Assembly: GCA_013151415.1 (NCBI GenBank)
Contig: JAADII010000098.1
Location: 1-47,998 of the forward strand
Length of the DNA stretch: 47,998 bases
Reading direction: 5' to 3'
Source of the DNA: Chloroflexota bacterium
GTDB taxonomy: Bacteria > Chloroflexota > Anaerolineae > J102
A model generated the notes under the pieces. It ran no database searches and was not told the origin of the DNA. It saw nothing but the letters and a program-made list of their open reading frames with translations. The first letter of the stretch is position 1. The number at the start of each line of letters is the position of its first letter. The position numbers and the translations under genes were made by a program. Positions 8,310 to 26,614 of the stretch are shown in pieces.

Positions 8310-8695
8310 ATCTAACCAGACGCCGCGAACGGCCACGCGGCGACGCGAGAGAAAAAGACGCCAGATGGAAGACTAAAACAATGGGTGTCAAATCGACGCC
8401 ACATTTTACCTCATGTTGGATGGATTCTCTAGGTGGAGAGGAGGTGAAAATGGCCGCGCTGAGGATGAACTTAGGGTCTATGTTCGTCTGGTTGCATGCC
8501 AGGCGAGACGCCGATGCTTTCGCCTCCTATCTCAAGCCGCTCAAGTTTCAAGTCATAACGCACTTAACAAGGCGCGACCATCCAATTTGCATATGCAGCT
8601 CCAGGTTCAGGACGAGCAGATCGGCGCACAGACGTTCTAAAAACGAGGTGCGCGAACTACGGAAATTCGGACATTTGTGGTATAATTGGCTTGTT
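8310..8695. other. Gap between guaA and a membrane-protein gene
   Basis: 386 bases with no confident gene. The stretch 8434-8452 contains a very good ribosome site (GGAGAGGAGGT) five bases before an ATG at 8450. That ATG opens a frame continuous with the next gene, but the 82 added residues use codons rare in neighbours (AGG, AGA, ATA) and look non-coding in their second half. An extended -10 at 8678-8686 closes the gap. I see no RNA gene here. Confidence 0.5.
8678..8686 (+). promoter_or_regulatory. Extended -10, start codon almost at +1
   Basis: TGG-TATAAT is a perfect extended -10. The ATG at 8696 begins 9 bases after it, so the leader would be two or three bases. The surrounding GTGGTATAATTGGC (8677-8690) matches the def promoter element at 13 of 14 positions. 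No -35 is obvious. Confidence 0.65.
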
Positions 8696-9712
8696 ATGGA
8701 ACAGCCTGCAAACGTTGCCAGCAAGCCTTTGGGCGTCATCGATGCGGTGCGCCTGGGCATCGATATCGTCAATCGCAATCTCTGGTTGTTGGCGCTTCCT
8801 GTCCTGGTCGATCTTTTGTTGTGGCAAGGGCCGAGACTCTCTATTTCCCCCTTGGTGCGCCGCGGCGTGGACATGATGTTGAGCCAACCCGACGCGCCCG
8901 CGGACCTGGCGCGCGATATGACCGCATATGCCGAACAGCTGCGCGCTTTGGGAGATAACTTCAACCTTCTCATACTTTTGGCTGGAACGATCTTGCCCTT
9001 CCCCTCGTTTTTCGCCCGGTCAGACGCGGCGCTCGAGATCGGGGGGGCCGGGCCGGTGATCGTTCTTTCGTGGGAGCAGGCCGCACTCTTCACCCTGATT
9101 CTCCTGCCTTTGGGGTTGCTCATCGCCAGCATCTGGCTGGCGTTGCTCGCGCGTTCGGTGGATAATGGCCTGACGCGATGGCGGCTTGTTTTGCGCCGCG
9201 CGGGCTGGATATGGTTGAACGGCGGTCTTTATTTGCTCGCTCTTATTGTCTTTTCCCTTGCATTGAGCGGCCTGTTCGTGCTTTTGATGTCGGTGATCAT
9301 GTTGGTGGCTGGCGCGGCGGGCTTGGGCGTCGTCAACTTTCTGTTCGCCATTTTTCTTGGTTTCAGTCTCTGGTTGAGCGTCGGGTTGATCATCGCCCTA
9401 AGCTTTGTGGTCGCGGCTATTGCTTTGGACGGCGTCAACGTGGCTCGCGCGGTTTGGCGCAGCCTCAATGTCGTCGGTCGCAATTTTTCCAGCACTGTGG
9501 GTCTGCTGCTCTTGCTTTTTATCATCACCGAGGGCTTCGCGCGCATCTGGCTGCGATTGAGCGTTTCTGATTGGGGCGTGGCCTTGGGCATCGTAGGTTC
9601 CGCCTATCTTGGCTCAGCTCTCACCGCGGCCCTGTTCCAATTCTATCGTGCGCGTTATCAATCCTGGCAACGCGTTCGCAGCGAAGTGGCCAACACTCGT
9701 CGCGAGGGATGA
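8696..9712 (+). CDS. Hypothetical polytopic membrane protein
   Basis: A 338-residue hydrophobic protein that I do not recognise. About six membrane spans can be placed: near residues 25-45, 88-108, 122-150, 175-215, 218-250 and 270-300. An extracytoplasmic loop with few charges lies around residues 50-85. The last 25 residues are basic (RARYQSWQRVRSEVANTRREG), consistent with a cytoplasmic C-terminus. The even spacing of amphipathic segments between pairs of spans recalls the DUF4013 or glycerophosphodiesterase-membrane-domain type of protein, but I cannot assign it. The start at 8696 is preferred because it sits just after a strong extended -10. An in-frame ATG at 8450 with a good ribosome site is the alternative. 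The gene is followed by a heptamer repeat and then gyrB. Confidence 0.75.
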   Translation: MEQPANVASKPLGVIDAVRLGIDIVNRNLWLLALPVLVDLLLWQGPRLSISPLVRRGVDMMLSQPDAPADLARDMTAYAEQLRALGDNFNLLILLAGTILPFPSFFARSDAALEIGGAGPVIVLSWEQAALFTLILLPLGLLIASIWLALLARSVDNGLTRWRLVLRRAGWIWLNGGLYLLALIVFSLALSGLFVLLMSVIMLVAGAAGLGVVNFLFAIFLGFSLWLSVGLIIALSFVVAAIALDGVNVARAVWRSLNVVGRNFSSTVGLLLLLFIITEGFARIWLRLSVSDWGVALGIVGSAYLGSALTAALFQFYRARYQSWQRVRSEVANTRREG

Positions 9713-21796: not shown

Positions 21797-22387
21797 TTAC
21801 TTTTTGCGCCAGGCCGCTTCGACTTGCGCTTCTAGCTCGTCCAGTGTGCCGCTGTTGTCGATAACCACATCGGCCTGACTGACTTTGAAAGTTTGCGGGC
21901 TTTGCATGGCCATGCGTCGTTCGGCCTCTTCGCGACTCATGTTTCGGTCTTGCATCAGGCGTTGGATTTGCGTCTCGACCGGCGCGGTGACCACCCACAC
22001 CTGGTCGCACAAACCCAGCGTCATGCCCGATTCAAGCAATTTGATGGCTTCGATGACGACTATATCTGCATCGGCGCGCTCGATTTCATCCAAAATGGCT
22101 GCGTATACGGCGGGGTGAACGATGCGTTCGAGTTGCGCCAGTTTGTTTTGATCAGAAAATACCATGTCGCCCAATATCGAGCGATCGATCTCGCCCTTTT
22201 CGTTCAAAATGCGTTCGCCAAAGGCGGACACAATCGCGTCGTAGGCTCGCCCGCCTGGGGCCATGACCTGATGCGCCACTTTGTCTGCATCGATAATGTG
22301 CGCGCCGCGCCGCGCGAGCATGTGCAACACCGTGCTTTTTCCTACGCCTATGTTGCCGGTGAGGCCAATGATGGTCTTGTCGGGCAT
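21797..22387 (-). CDS. coaE: Dephospho-CoA kinase
   Basis: Phosphorylates the ribose 3' hydroxyl of dephospho-CoA, the last step of coenzyme A synthesis. The 196-residue protein opens with the P-loop in IIGLTGNIGVGKST. Other family features are DADKVAHQVM, the lid region with IVHPAVYAAI, VVIEAIKLLESGM, and the C-terminal QADVVIDNSGTLDELEAQV. The ATG at 22387 gives the normal CoaE N-terminus; a longer open frame exists but has no family similarity. It follows the ABC-F gene by 112 bases on the same strand. Confidence 0.95.
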   Translation of the reverse strand: MPDKTIIGLTGNIGVGKSTVLHMLARRGAHIIDADKVAHQVMAPGGRAYDAIVSAFGERILNEKGEIDRSILGDMVFSDQNKLAQLERIVHPAVYAAILDEIERADADIVVIEAIKLLESGMTLGLCDQVWVVTAPVETQIQRLMQDRNMSREEAERRMAMQSPQTFKVSQADVVIDNSGTLDELEAQVEAAWRKK

Positions 22388-22499
22388 GATGCAAGGGGGC
22401 AAGGGCAATGGTTGCGGGCGCGAATCAGCAGACGGAAAACAGACAATCCGAGGCCGAAATGGGCCTCCAAACATAACATTATTGATCCATCGCCCCCAT

Positions 22500-24473
22500 T
22501 CACACAAGTTCGGCCCAGGTTTCAATGAGTCGGTTCAATTCGCGTTCGGTTTGGGCATACTCCTGGCCCAAATGTTGGATTTCGTCTAATTTCTGATTTG
22601 CACTGGCCGCCTCCAGCGCTTGCTCGATGGCCTCCAGTTGGCGCTCTAGTTCATGGATGCGCGTTTCCAAGGCCGCGGCCTCGGCCTGGCGTTTCTCCAT
22701 TTCTTTACGTTTTCGTCGCTCTTCGCGAGCGCGGCGGCGATGCGCTGCGCTCGCCTCGCGCTCGGTTCGACGCCCATTGCCCGATAACGCGCCTTCGGCC
22801 TCGCGGGCCGCGACGTAATCACTGAAATTTCCTTCGAACGTCCGCAAACGGCCATTCTCCACGGCCCAAATCTGGGTGGCGAGGCTATCCAGCAGGTAAC
22901 GATCATGCGAGACCAGAAGCACTGCGCCGTCGAATGCAGCCAACGCGTCTTCCAGCACCTCTTGCGACTCGATATCGAGATGATTGGTGGGTTCGTCCAG
23001 CACCAGAAAATTGGCTTGCTGGCGGATCAACCGCGCCAAAGCCAGTCGGCTGCGCTGGCCGCCGCTCAATGTCTTCACGGTCTTGAACACATCGTCGCCT
23101 GTGAAGAGAAATTGAGCCAAAATGCGCCGCGCTTCGGCTGGTGACAACTTCGGGTCCGCGTCCATAAGCGCATCCAAGACGGTCCATTCGGGTTTCAGGG
23201 CGGCTTGAATCTGCGCCAGATAGCCCAACCGCACACTCGCACCAACTCGCAACTCGCCGGACAGGGGCGGAATTTCACCCAGAAGCGTGCGGACGAAGGT
23301 CGTTTTGCCCGCGCCGTTGGGACCGATGAGACCCACGCGTTCGCCTCGTTTGAGCAGTGCGTTGTCTGCATGAAATAGCACTGTGTCTTCCGGCCCGAAT
23401 CGTCCCTCGCCCACATAAACGTAGCCCCCTGAGCGCTGACGACGTTGCACCGATTGGGGGCGCGCGGCGTAGCCAATGACCAAATCTCGCATGGCCAGCA
23501 CCAGTTCGCCACTGCGCGCACGCGCCTGCATTCTCAATCTCATGCGTTTTTGCCGGCGCGGCGCTTGCAAACGCCTCGTGGCCAACATGCGCGCCAGGCG
23601 CGTGCGTCGGCCCTGCGCCTGGCGCGTATTTTGGCCGGCAATGTTGCGGCGAATGTATGCCTGCTCTTTGGCGATGAAGGCTTGCTGCGCTTCGTATTCC
23701 TTGCGCAATCGCTCCATGCGCTCTTCGCGCTGGATGAGATAATGGCTGTAGTTGCCGCGATAAATGGTCATCTGGCCCCATGCCATCTCCCAGATGCGGG
23801 TGGCGATGCGGTCTAGAAAATAGCGATCGTGCGCGACCACCACCATCGCGCCTTCCCATTTTAGCAAGACGTTCTCCAGCCATTCCACCCCATGCAGATC
23901 GAGATGATTGGTGGGTTCGTCCAGCAACAGGAGATCGGGCTTTTGCAATAATATGCGGGCCAGCAGCGCGCGGGTGCGCTGGCCGCCGCTGAGATGGGTT
24001 AAGGGTAGGTCGAACTGGTCGGGGCGGAATCCAAGACCGGTGAGGGTTTGACGGATGCGCGTGAGATATTCATAGCCTCCGCGCAACTCAAAGCGGTGTT
24101 GGCGTTCGGCATAACGCTCCAGCGCGGCCTCGCCATGAATAGGATCGGCCATCTGCTCTTCCAACTGACGCAGCGCCTTCTCTTCCGCGCGCAAATCTTC
24201 AAACACCTCCAGCATATCTTCCCACAAGGTTTTATCGCTGGCCGGGGGCGGCGTTTGGGGCAAGTAACCCACTTTCAGCCCGCGACGCCAATGCACCACC
24301 CCGGATGTGGGCGCCTGTTCGCGGGCCAGCGCGCGTAGAAGAGAGGTCTTGCCTTCGCCATTAGGCCCGACCAGGCCTATGCGATCGCCTTCGGTCACAG
24401 ACGCGTTCACCCCCTCGAACACATCGAGCGGGCCGTAAGATATGGCCAGATTGACGGCGGTCAAGAGAGACAT
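22500..24473 (-). CDS. ABC-F family ATPase (EttA/Uup type)
   Basis: A soluble duplicated ATPase of 657 residues without membrane spans; ABC-F proteins act on the ribosome to relieve stalled or antibiotic-blocked translation. The first ATP site has Walker A GPNGEGKT at 36-43, signature LSGGQRTR and Walker B LLLLDEPTNHLDL. The second has GPNGAGKT, LSGGQRSR and LVLDEPTNHLDIE. The inter-domain linker (about 250-330) is long and very basic, rich in Arg and Gln (RRNIAGQNTRQAQGRRTRL), as in rRNA-contacting linkers. The C-terminus is a charged coiled coil (Glu/Arg-rich, about 565-655), as in Uup. TATAAT lies 6 bases before the ATG, so the mRNA is probably leaderless. The subfamily is not determined. 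Confidence 0.93.
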   Translation of the reverse strand: MSLLTAVNLAISYGPLDVFEGVNASVTEGDRIGLVGPNGEGKTSLLRALAREQAPTSGVVHWRRGLKVGYLPQTPPPASDKTLWEDMLEVFEDLRAEEKALRQLEEQMADPIHGEAALERYAERQHRFELRGGYEYLTRIRQTLTGLGFRPDQFDLPLTHLSGGQRTRALLARILLQKPDLLLLDEPTNHLDLHGVEWLENVLLKWEGAMVVVAHDRYFLDRIATRIWEMAWGQMTIYRGNYSHYLIQREERMERLRKEYEAQQAFIAKEQAYIRRNIAGQNTRQAQGRRTRLARMLATRRLQAPRRQKRMRLRMQARARSGELVLAMRDLVIGYAARPQSVQRRQRSGGYVYVGEGRFGPEDTVLFHADNALLKRGERVGLIGPNGAGKTTFVRTLLGEIPPLSGELRVGASVRLGYLAQIQAALKPEWTVLDALMDADPKLSPAEARRILAQFLFTGDDVFKTVKTLSGGQRSRLALARLIRQQANFLVLDEPTNHLDIESQEVLEDALAAFDGAVLLVSHDRYLLDSLATQIWAVENGRLRTFEGNFSDYVAAREAEGALSGNGRRTEREASAAHRRRAREERRKRKEMEKRQAEAAALETRIHELERQLEAIEQALEAASANQKLDEIQHLGQEYAQTERELNRLIETWAELV

Positions 24474-24479
24474 AACGTG

Positions 24480-24485
24480 ATTATA
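24480..24485 (-). promoter_or_regulatory. -10 element directly before the ABC-F start
   Basis: The minus strand reads TATAAT with only 6 bases before the ATG at 24473. The first base of the start codon is then the seventh base after the -10, the usual +1. No good -35 is visible. No ribosome site can fit, which supports a leaderless message. Confidence 0.65.
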
Positions 24486-24516
24486 CCGCAGATGTCGTAT
24501 GGTCGGCGAAAGCCAT

Positions 24517-24546
24517 TTGACCGCATGAAAGCGCGAGGTTTATACT
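24517..24546 (+). promoter_or_regulatory. Promoter for the class IV aminotransferase
   Basis: TTGACC (24517-24522), an 18-base spacer and TATACT (24541-24546) face the aminotransferase gene. It is back to back with the ABC-F promoter. The predicted transcript start near 24553 leaves a 35 to 55 base leader, depending on the start codon. Confidence 0.6.
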
Positions 24547-24607
24547 GTGCCATGTTTTCGACGCCGAGCCAAAAGGCCTTTTTGCATTGGAATATTTTTC
24601 AGCGATT

Positions 24608-25438
24608 ATGTCCATTTTTTCAAAAATCATTCACAACGGCGAATTCATCGCTCGTGAACAAGCTGTCATGCCGGTGTATGCGCCCGCGTTGGTGGGCGCG
24701 TTGGGCGTTTACGAGACCATCTTGGCGCGACGCGGGCGCTACATCGCGCTGGAAGAGCATCTTACGCGGTTGTTTGCGTCGGCCAGCGGAGCCAAACTAA
24801 ATCTCGATGTGGATATAGCGCAGCTCAAGCAGTGGTGTTATTTGCTTTTGGCCGCGAATCATCCTGAGGGATTGGTGCGGGTGTTGGTCATGGATCTGGG
24901 ACATCCCGCAGCGGATATTTTTCTTTATCAAATGACTTACGAGCCGCCCTCGGCCGAAGATTATGTTCGCGGGACGCGGGTCATTCTCTATCATGGCGAG
25001 CGCGCGTTGCCGCCAGTGAAGTCATTCAACACCCTGGTTCCTGGTTTGGCCCGCAAGGCCGCGCGCGAGGCCGGCGCGCACGATGCGTTGCTGGTGGACC
25101 GTAACGGCTACATTACCGAGGGCTCCAATTGCAATGTGTTCGCGGTGATGGATGGAACCCTGTTCGCGCCGCCGAGTGATATGATTTTGGAGGGCACGGT
25201 CATGAATCGGGTGATTCGGCTGGCCGAGGAGTTGGCCATCCCTTTCCAGCGGCGATTGCTGGCGTTGAGCGAGGTTCCCCAGTGGCAAGAGGCCTTTCTC
25301 ACCTCCACGCGACGCGGGGTGTTGCCCATCCGCCAGGTGGGCGAACATAAATTGGGCGAACCTGGCCCTATCACCCGGCGTCTGCGCGAGGCCTACTTGG
25401 CCTGGGAGGAAAGCGTGTTAACCTCAGTCGCTCTGTGA
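24608..25438 (+). CDS. Class IV PLP-dependent aminotransferase or lyase
   Basis: The fold shared by branched-chain aminotransferase (IlvE), D-amino acid transaminase and aminodeoxychorismate lyase (PabC). In the 276-residue protein the PLP lysine is Lys138 in LPPVKSFNTL, and the conserved Glu is Glu171 in GYITEGSNCNVF. The phosphate-binding turn is in ILEGTVMNRVI, and the C-terminal FLTSTRRGVLPI holds the usual Thr-Ser-Thr. The sequence is closest in style to IlvE/DAAT-like proteins of unsettled substrate; the Tyr and Arg that fix substrate class cannot be judged by eye. ATG at 24608 is preferred; a TTG at 24587 is in frame and would add seven residues. The last 15 bases overlap the ArsA-like gene. 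Confidence 0.88.
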   Translation: MSIFSKIIHNGEFIAREQAVMPVYAPALVGALGVYETILARRGRYIALEEHLTRLFASASGAKLNLDVDIAQLKQWCYLLLAANHPEGLVRVLVMDLGHPAADIFLYQMTYEPPSAEDYVRGTRVILYHGERALPPVKSFNTLVPGLARKAAREAGAHDALLVDRNGYITEGSNCNVFAVMDGTLFAPPSDMILEGTVMNRVIRLAEELAIPFQRRLLALSEVPQWQEAFLTSTRRGVLPIRQVGEHKLGEPGPITRRLREAYLAWEESVLTSVAL

Positions 25439-26614
25439 TCCGTTCCGTCGATCCAGAAAGCGGATTTCCAGATGGTCTTCGCGGTAGCGCGCGCCCGCGA
25501 TGCGCCGCCCCATGAGCGATTGGGGCAAACTGATGTGCCGTTTCCAGTTGCCAATGCGCACGATCAGTTCGTCGTGCACTCCGCGATGAAGCTTGACTTC
25601 TTGCTTATCGACCAGTGGCAAGGGGATGATGAGCAAATATTCGCCATCGCGCTTGATAATTTGTTGGGGTTTGCCCTTATAGAAAATCGTGGTGGGGTCC
25701 TGACCATGATATGTGGCCTCGCCCACGCGACGCAACATCTCGGCTCCCACCACTTCACGCTCGAATAGGGGAATCTGAAAGATGGGCAAGGGGCTGAACG
25801 ATTGCTCGATGATCTCGCTGTATTTGTGTTGGCTCGCCTTCCATTTTTCGAAGTAAGGATCGCTCACCACATCGGGGATATGACGGTTGCTGATGATGGC
25901 GTCGGTGGAAAGGCTGTAAAGATTGAGATAGGTGAACGCGCGCCGCGCCTCTTTGATGACCATTTTCTCAGGATTGAGCACCAGCCGCACAGTGCTGATA
26001 TCGGGATTGGTGACCAGGCGCTCCAGGCGTTGCAGATCGCGCACCAGCTCTTCCACCGCATCGAAAAGCTGCTCCTCGGGCAAAGGCATGTCGGTGACGG
26101 CTTTCATCAATGGTCGCGCCACCTTCATGGCTTTGCGCTCCACCGGAAATATCTTCTCGATGTACCAGGCGGCCATCTCGGGAAAGGCGAGCAGTTGTAA
26201 GGTGGCTCCGGTGGGGGCCATGTCCACCACAACCACGTCGTAGTCACCCGATTCGGCCAGGGTTGCGATCTGAAGCAGGCTGGCTAATTCTTCCATGCCG
26301 GGCAGCACGCTGGTTTCTTCGGCCACCAGGTTGTCCATCCCGCGCCAGGCGAAAAGGGCCATGAGATATTGCTGGACGCGACCCCAATATCGCTCCATTT
26401 GGTGAAGCAGGTCGATCTCCTGCCCCCAAAGCTTATCGGCGATGCGCACAGGTTCGGGGCCAATGCGCTGATCAAAACTATCGCCCAACGAATGAGCGGG
26501 ATCGGTGGAGACGACAATGGTGCGATAGCCCAATTCGGCGCAACGCAAGGCTGTGGCCGCGCTGACGGTGGTTTTGCCCACCCCGCCCTTGCCGGTGTAG
26601 AGAATGATTCGCAT
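25424..26614 (-). CDS. ArsA/GET3-family ATPase
   Basis: A 396-residue single-unit member of the ArsA P-loop ATPases. The deviant Walker A is at residues 8-15 in YTGKGGVGKTT, switch I in VVSTDPAHSLGDSFD, and switch II in VVVDMAPTGATLQLLAFPEM. The C-terminal 90 residues (IPLPLVDKQEVKLHRGVHDELIVRIGNWKRHI) form a small beta domain like the HSP20-type tail that follows many bacterial ArsA-like ATPases. No arsenic genes (arsR, arsB, arsD) are nearby and I do not see the Cys triad of true ArsA, so arsenite transport is unlikely. Related proteins act as membrane-protein targeting or metallochaperone-like ATPases. AGGTGAT lies before the ATG. Confidence 0.88.
   Translation of the reverse strand: MRIILYTGKGGVGKTTVSAATALRCAELGYRTIVVSTDPAHSLGDSFDQRIGPEPVRIADKLWGQEIDLLHQMERYWGRVQQYLMALFAWRGMDNLVAEETSVLPGMEELASLLQIATLAESGDYDVVVVDMAPTGATLQLLAFPEMAAWYIEKIFPVERKAMKVARPLMKAVTDMPLPEEQLFDAVEELVRDLQRLERLVTNPDISTVRLVLNPEKMVIKEARRAFTYLNLYSLSTDAIISNRHIPDVVSDPYFEKWKASQHKYSEIIEQSFSPLPIFQIPLFEREVVGAEMLRRVGEATYHGQDPTTIFYKGKPQQIIKRDGEYLLIIPLPLVDKQEVKLHRGVHDELIVRIGNWKRHISLPQSLMGRRIAGARYREDHLEIRFLDRRNGSQSD

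Follow-up and report, generated by a model that had tools for sequence, protein, structure and literature searches.

Leaderless genes have been described in the Chloroflexi by the signals that precede them. In the available text of Zheng et al. (2011; PMC3160421), TA-like signals are placed about 12 bp before the starts of leaderless genes, with the form TAtaaT in Chloroflexi. The accessible sections of two other papers bear on how common such starts are: in PMC5397173 two Chloroflexi species have a negative mean (PC 3, −2.34) on the component linked to a −10-like AT bias, and in PMC10783764 the table on Shine-Dalgarno (SD) sites gives 58% beside Anaerolineae. As far as these sections go, leaderless starts make up no more than a minority in the phylum and are not its main mode of initiation. 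The portion of PMC9031893 at hand describes 70S particles binding to initiation codons located at the 5′ end or close to it, and states that the MazF stress-ribosome model was not reproduced by other laboratories. Among ABC-F genes, msrD and vmlR are drug-induced and, in the published excerpts, controlled by stalling in a leader open reading frame (ORF) together with attenuation. The excerpts of the literature on leaderless Chloroflexi, Chloroflexota or Anaerolineae, on ABC-F and on mutL (including PMC9159947 and PMC10502375) do not mention any ABC-F gene as leaderless. The leaderless arrangement is already known for Chloroflexi, by the same text of PMC3160421; what is new here is a predicted ABC-F case.

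The window, by which we mean the whole stretch of DNA analysed, comprises 47,998 nucleotides and is contig C153 of a Chloroflexota genome of 4.52 Mb (197 contigs, 97.66% complete). The ABC-F gene occupies 22500..24473 on its minus strand and, from profile matches, encodes an ATPase of 657 residues with two ABC domains and an ABC_tran_Xtn linker. Its start is backed by 30 loci: the ATG aligns in every one of them, the second residue is S, A or T, and the N-termini are similar. The earlier note, which named no strand, had placed a TATAAT six bases 5′ of this ATG, with the A at +1, and the coordinates confirm that placement on the minus strand: the −10 box, which matches the TATAAT consensus at six of six positions, lies at 24480..24485, the six-base gap CACGTT at 24474..24479, and the start codon at 24473..24471. 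Six bases is the usual distance from a −10 box to the transcription start, so that the A of the ATG (24473) is the predicted +1.

No SD-like 4-mer of AAGGAGGTGA is present within the 30 bases 5′ of the ABC-F ATG. A promoter scan of positions 24400-24700 found no −35 element that fits the TATAAT box, which is why the box is missing from the list of sites that the scan returned, and no TGn precedes the box to make it an extended −10; no terminator-like site is seen in the same interval. The first 40 nt of the predicted message fold with −6.2 kcal/mol, close to the mean of −6.1 for other first-ATG 40-mers (n = 562; inner 40-mers have a mean of −9.0 kcal/mol), and the 5′ end is thus not unusually open for a gene start.

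We propose that a sigma-70-type −10 box is placed such that the first transcribed base of the ABC-F gene would be the A of the start codon. The resulting message, leaderless or nearly so, would carry ABC-F and probably coaE, and the ribosome would start at the 5′-terminal AUG without an SD site. The ABC-F gene would then be one case of a general leaderless class, with no special tie to ABC-F function. We regard it as likely that the gene is leaderless or nearly so, and that it belongs to such a class without a special functional link.

The protein passes the NCBIfam model for ribosomal protection-like ABC-F proteins (NF000355; 467.3 bits against a cut-off of 380). Pfam finds PF00005 in two stretches and PF12848 at residues 229-311, with a C-terminal domain just below its cut-off (31.4 against 32). 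Among the 25 of 191 NCBIfam families listed, the resistance subfamilies fall below their cut-offs (score/cut-off: Msr 295/680, Vga 305/725, Lsa 206/750, OptrA 304/1450, Sal 263/725, CplR 281/780, CarA 263/1050). The solved structures closest in sequence are those of EttA and Uup; since neither NCBIfam cut-off is reached (EttA 405/599, Uup 423/900), the label 'housekeeping' is based on coaE as the neighbour. Of the eight public ABC-F loci returned, seven come from Anaerolineae MAGs, at 64-72% identity, and the eighth is distant (26%); on this basis the genome probably lies in or close to the Anaerolineae.

The gene coaE, for dephospho-CoA kinase, is assigned by profile matches to 21797..22387 on the minus strand, with its start putatively placed at MPDKT. 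It lies inside a listed ORF (21797-22525) that overlaps the end of the ABC-F gene. In 28 of the 30 loci ABC-F is followed by a coaE match in the same orientation, and the two genes are probably co-transcribed.

Within the window the exact pattern TATAAT-N6-ATG occurs once, against 0.08 expected, and at least one copy appears in 8 of 100 shuffles. TATAAT alone is at chance level (4 against 4.04 expected) and the looser TANNNT-N6-ATG shows no enrichment (6 against 8.08), so that the weight falls on the exact box, its place and the real start behind it. Elsewhere in the window, at 8681-8696 of the plus strand, TGGTATAAT forms an extended −10 box 9 bases 5′ of the ATG of a 338-aa ORF, a predicted near-leaderless candidate.

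Counts of TATAAT-Nd-ATG were made singly for N5, N6, N7, N8 and N11. Over 20 genomes of the family the totals are 175 at N5, 399 at N6, 289 at N7, 219 at N8 and 147 at N11, against 56, 45, 40, 34 and 42 respectively for reversed-pattern controls. Because the pattern exceeds its control at every spacing tested, the comparison is made between spacings. N6 is above N5 and N11 in all 20 genomes and above N8 in 19 (equal in one); relative to N7 it is higher in 14, equal in one and lower in five. The source genome itself has 23, 32, 22, 19 and 14 sites at these spacings, with 32 sites at N6 against 4 for the backward pattern, and 331 TATAAT-ATG pairs at N0-N20 pooled against 101 in the control; its N6 excess is modest, the four other spacings averaging 19.5 (Poisson p 0.006). 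A spacing profile built on crude gene calls in an 846-kb sample was rejected, being noisy with only a weak N6 peak. Before early in-frame ATGs at N6 in this sample, TANNNT was found 12 times (3.6 expected) and exact TATAAT once (0.2 expected). Given the noise in such profiles, whole-genome exact counts and a gene-start test were used instead. The 40 stretches of 18-20 kb that were read come from contigs already known to hold TATAAT-ATG matches, and are thus not a random sample.

In the gene-start test, an ATG of the source genome was counted as a gene start if it opened at least 100 codons and had at most 60 open codons upstream. The sites covered were 30 of 32 at N6 (two having no locus), 20 of 23 at N5, 19 of 19 at N8 and 14 of 14 at N11, with three stretches sharing one TATAAT between two spacings. 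Gene starts made up 17/30 at N6, 3/20 at N5, 4/19 at N8 and 2/14 at N11, a difference between N6 and the pooled others (9/53) with a Fisher p of 2.6e-4. An SD-like 4-mer stands in the 15 bases before one of the 17 N6 genes and none of the nine at other spacings, a count that says little because the box fills 6 of those 15 bases and the genes at other spacings also lack SD sites. In the 846-kb sample, SD-like 4-mers precede 34% of the first ATGs (n = 562) and 14% of the inner ones (n = 954), which indicates that SD starts are used too; no 16S rRNA from which to read the anti-SD sequence was found in the source genome. Pfam searches of five N6 genes identified mutL, a cation-efflux protein and a glycosyltransferase, two genes having no match at 1e-10. 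The N6 excess and the enrichment for gene starts together make it probable that a leaderless class exists in this Anaerolineae-related family and that the ABC-F gene is a member. The leaderless start that the earlier note proposed for this gene, a prediction from sequence, agrees with the position of the box and gains support from the family-wide excess and the gene-start test.

Comparison of ABC-F orthologues covered 30 loci, 18 from the family and 12 from outside it, 60 of 100 genomes having matched at 1e-100. An exact TATAAT ends within 60 nt of the ABC-F start in 23 of the 30, against 1.4% of 66-nt windows drawn from them at random. Among the family loci the spacing is N6 in one (the source genome only), N8 in eight and N28-N50 in six, with no box in three; the N8 loci are all from genus g5 (8/8), six with TATAAT and two with TACAAT. 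Outside the family it is N6 in one and N28-N39 in nine, with no box in two. A leader of about 22-44 nt is predicted at 15 of the 30 loci. SD matches of at least 4 bases precede ABC-F in none of the 18 family loci and in 7 of the 12 others. A −10 box near ABC-F is common, as read from these sequences, and its distance to the start drifts. At six family loci (L004-L008 and L012) the box lies 28-50 bases upstream without an SD-like match, and these ABC-F genes are apparently leadered but non-SD.

On the other side of the ABC-F start, the divergent aminotransferase and an ArsA-like gene are matched at the source locus only, within compared flanks of mostly 1.5 kb, shorter at contig ends. The latter gene, at 25424-26614 of the minus strand, encodes a Get3/ArsA-type ATPase with an HSP20-like C-terminal domain and adjoins the aminotransferase gene. 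The genes on this side have been reshuffled, which may have been the route by which this promoter came to the ABC-F ATG.

Two genes were compared with ABC-F for conservation of the spacing, mutL and the third N6 gene (L040 type, no Pfam match). For mutL, 18 of 20 genomes matched, two matches having no start, and in all 16 readable family loci (L164-L177, L179 and L180) TATAAT lies at N6-N8, with 12 at N6, three at N7 and one at N8; in the source genome the box precedes the ATG at G000:C134:35612-35626. The L040-type gene, matched in 17 of 20 genomes, gives a mixed picture, with exact N6 in 5 of the 17. The comparison sets mutL, in which a leaderless spacing is kept, apart from ABC-F, in which the spacing drifts; judged by sequence, leaderlessness is conserved at mutL, which would serve better than ABC-F as a test case.

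Other starts for the ABC-F message can be considered. The promoter scan of 24400-24700 returned three sites, against 0.3 expected in shuffles, two of them on the minus strand. One of these lies within the ABC-F gene (24464..24437). The other, TTGAAA-18-AAAAAT (24594..24623; 9/12), has a poor −10 word, and from it the leader would measure about 114 nt; an alternative −10 word, TATAAA (24539..24544, minus strand), is likewise poor, has no reported −35 and would give one of about 59 nt. The TATAAT could then be incidental and ABC-F transcribed from a promoter further upstream, with a non-SD leader. The box without a −35, the TTGAAA-18-AAAAAT on the same strand and the six of 18 family loci with a box 28-50 bases upstream and no SD all agree with this, as do the short ORFs of the 114-nt stretch, which run to 10-30 codons if transcription starts near 24587, the 30-codon one overlapping the ABC-F start. 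We nevertheless think an upstream promoter quite improbable, given an exact consensus at the exact distance, the poor −10 words AAAAAT and TATAAA, and the mere 134 bases between the ABC-F ATG and the aminotransferase ATG (24608). The search for an upstream start carrying a ribosome site, which the earlier note had named as the finding that would count against a leaderless message, revealed a weak promoter-like site and no SD-like 4-mer before the ATG. In the same region (24540-24599, minus strand) the AAAAAT also lies 6 bases 5′ of an ATG (24587) that opens a 15-codon ORF, MQKGLLARRRKHGTV; the match is probably due to chance, though a leaderless upstream ORF would look alike. The third scan site, TTGACC-18-TATACT (24517..24546, plus strand), is context only: it faces the ORF of the class IV aminotransferase, whose leader from this site would be about 55 nt long, and by eye there is no SD before the ATG at 24608. 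A closer variant is that the TATAAT works and the leader is very short (1-4 nt) or the starts are mixed. Sigma-70 polymerase varies its choice of start by one or two bases, N7 ranks second among the spacings counted, and genus g5 keeps N8 at all eight of its ABC-F loci; set against this, N6 has the highest family total and a purine sits at the preferred distance, and we consider such a near-leaderless message unlikely.

A start at the A of the ATG, which we prefer, is compatible with a further proposal, that leaderlessness of the ABC-F message has been selected as a means of sustaining ABC-F synthesis when antibiotics block normal initiation. Leaderless translation in E. coli is reported, in the accessible text of PMC4929434 and PMC5230787, to continue under kasugamycin, and near-leaderless spacing is found in genus g5 as well. 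However, the ABC-F spacing is kept neither across the family nor across the class, the same arrangement precedes the unrelated mutL, cation-efflux and glycosyltransferase genes, and the named resistance subfamilies among the 25 of 191 families listed all stay below their cut-offs; as an explanation it seems to us extremely improbable. A narrower form, in which the leaderless or near-leaderless ABC-F messages of the source genome and g5 escape initiation inhibitors and have for this reason been retained by some members of the family, is very doubtful. The earlier note had suggested that a leaderless ABC-F message would be favoured when ribosomes stall. This idea is unsupported, since the ABC-F spacing, unlike that of mutL, is not conserved, with N6 in only one of 18 family loci; the N6 arrangement also occurs at unrelated genes, the usual neighbour is the housekeeping gene coaE, and the drug-induced msrD and vmlR are described, in the excerpts available, as using leader ORFs and attenuation. 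For leaderlessness to be credited with a role in ABC-F function, a conservation would be required that is absent from the compared loci.

The resemblance to msrD and vmlR, on the published excerpts, lies in an ABC-F protein that acts on the ribosome; theirs is control by a leader ORF and attenuation, whereas a transcript from the box at the ABC-F ATG would have no leader, and a message starting there would leave no room for leader-ORF attenuation. In the portion of PMC9031893 at hand, Mycobacterium tuberculosis and Deinococcus deserti are named for leaderless mRNAs that likewise begin at the start codon or close to it and are initiated without an SD. Those are described as common messages; the present ones are predicted from sequence, and exact TATAAT-N6-ATG sites are few (32 in 4.5 Mb). 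The likeness to the TA-led genes in the available text of PMC3160421 extends to a −10-like signal about 12 bp 5′ of the start, the form TAtaaT and no SD, the present analysis differing in that it concerns a single ABC-F gene, with exact counts over 20 genomes and the gene-start test applied to one. With it, the leaderless class of Chloroflexota gains one more predicted member.
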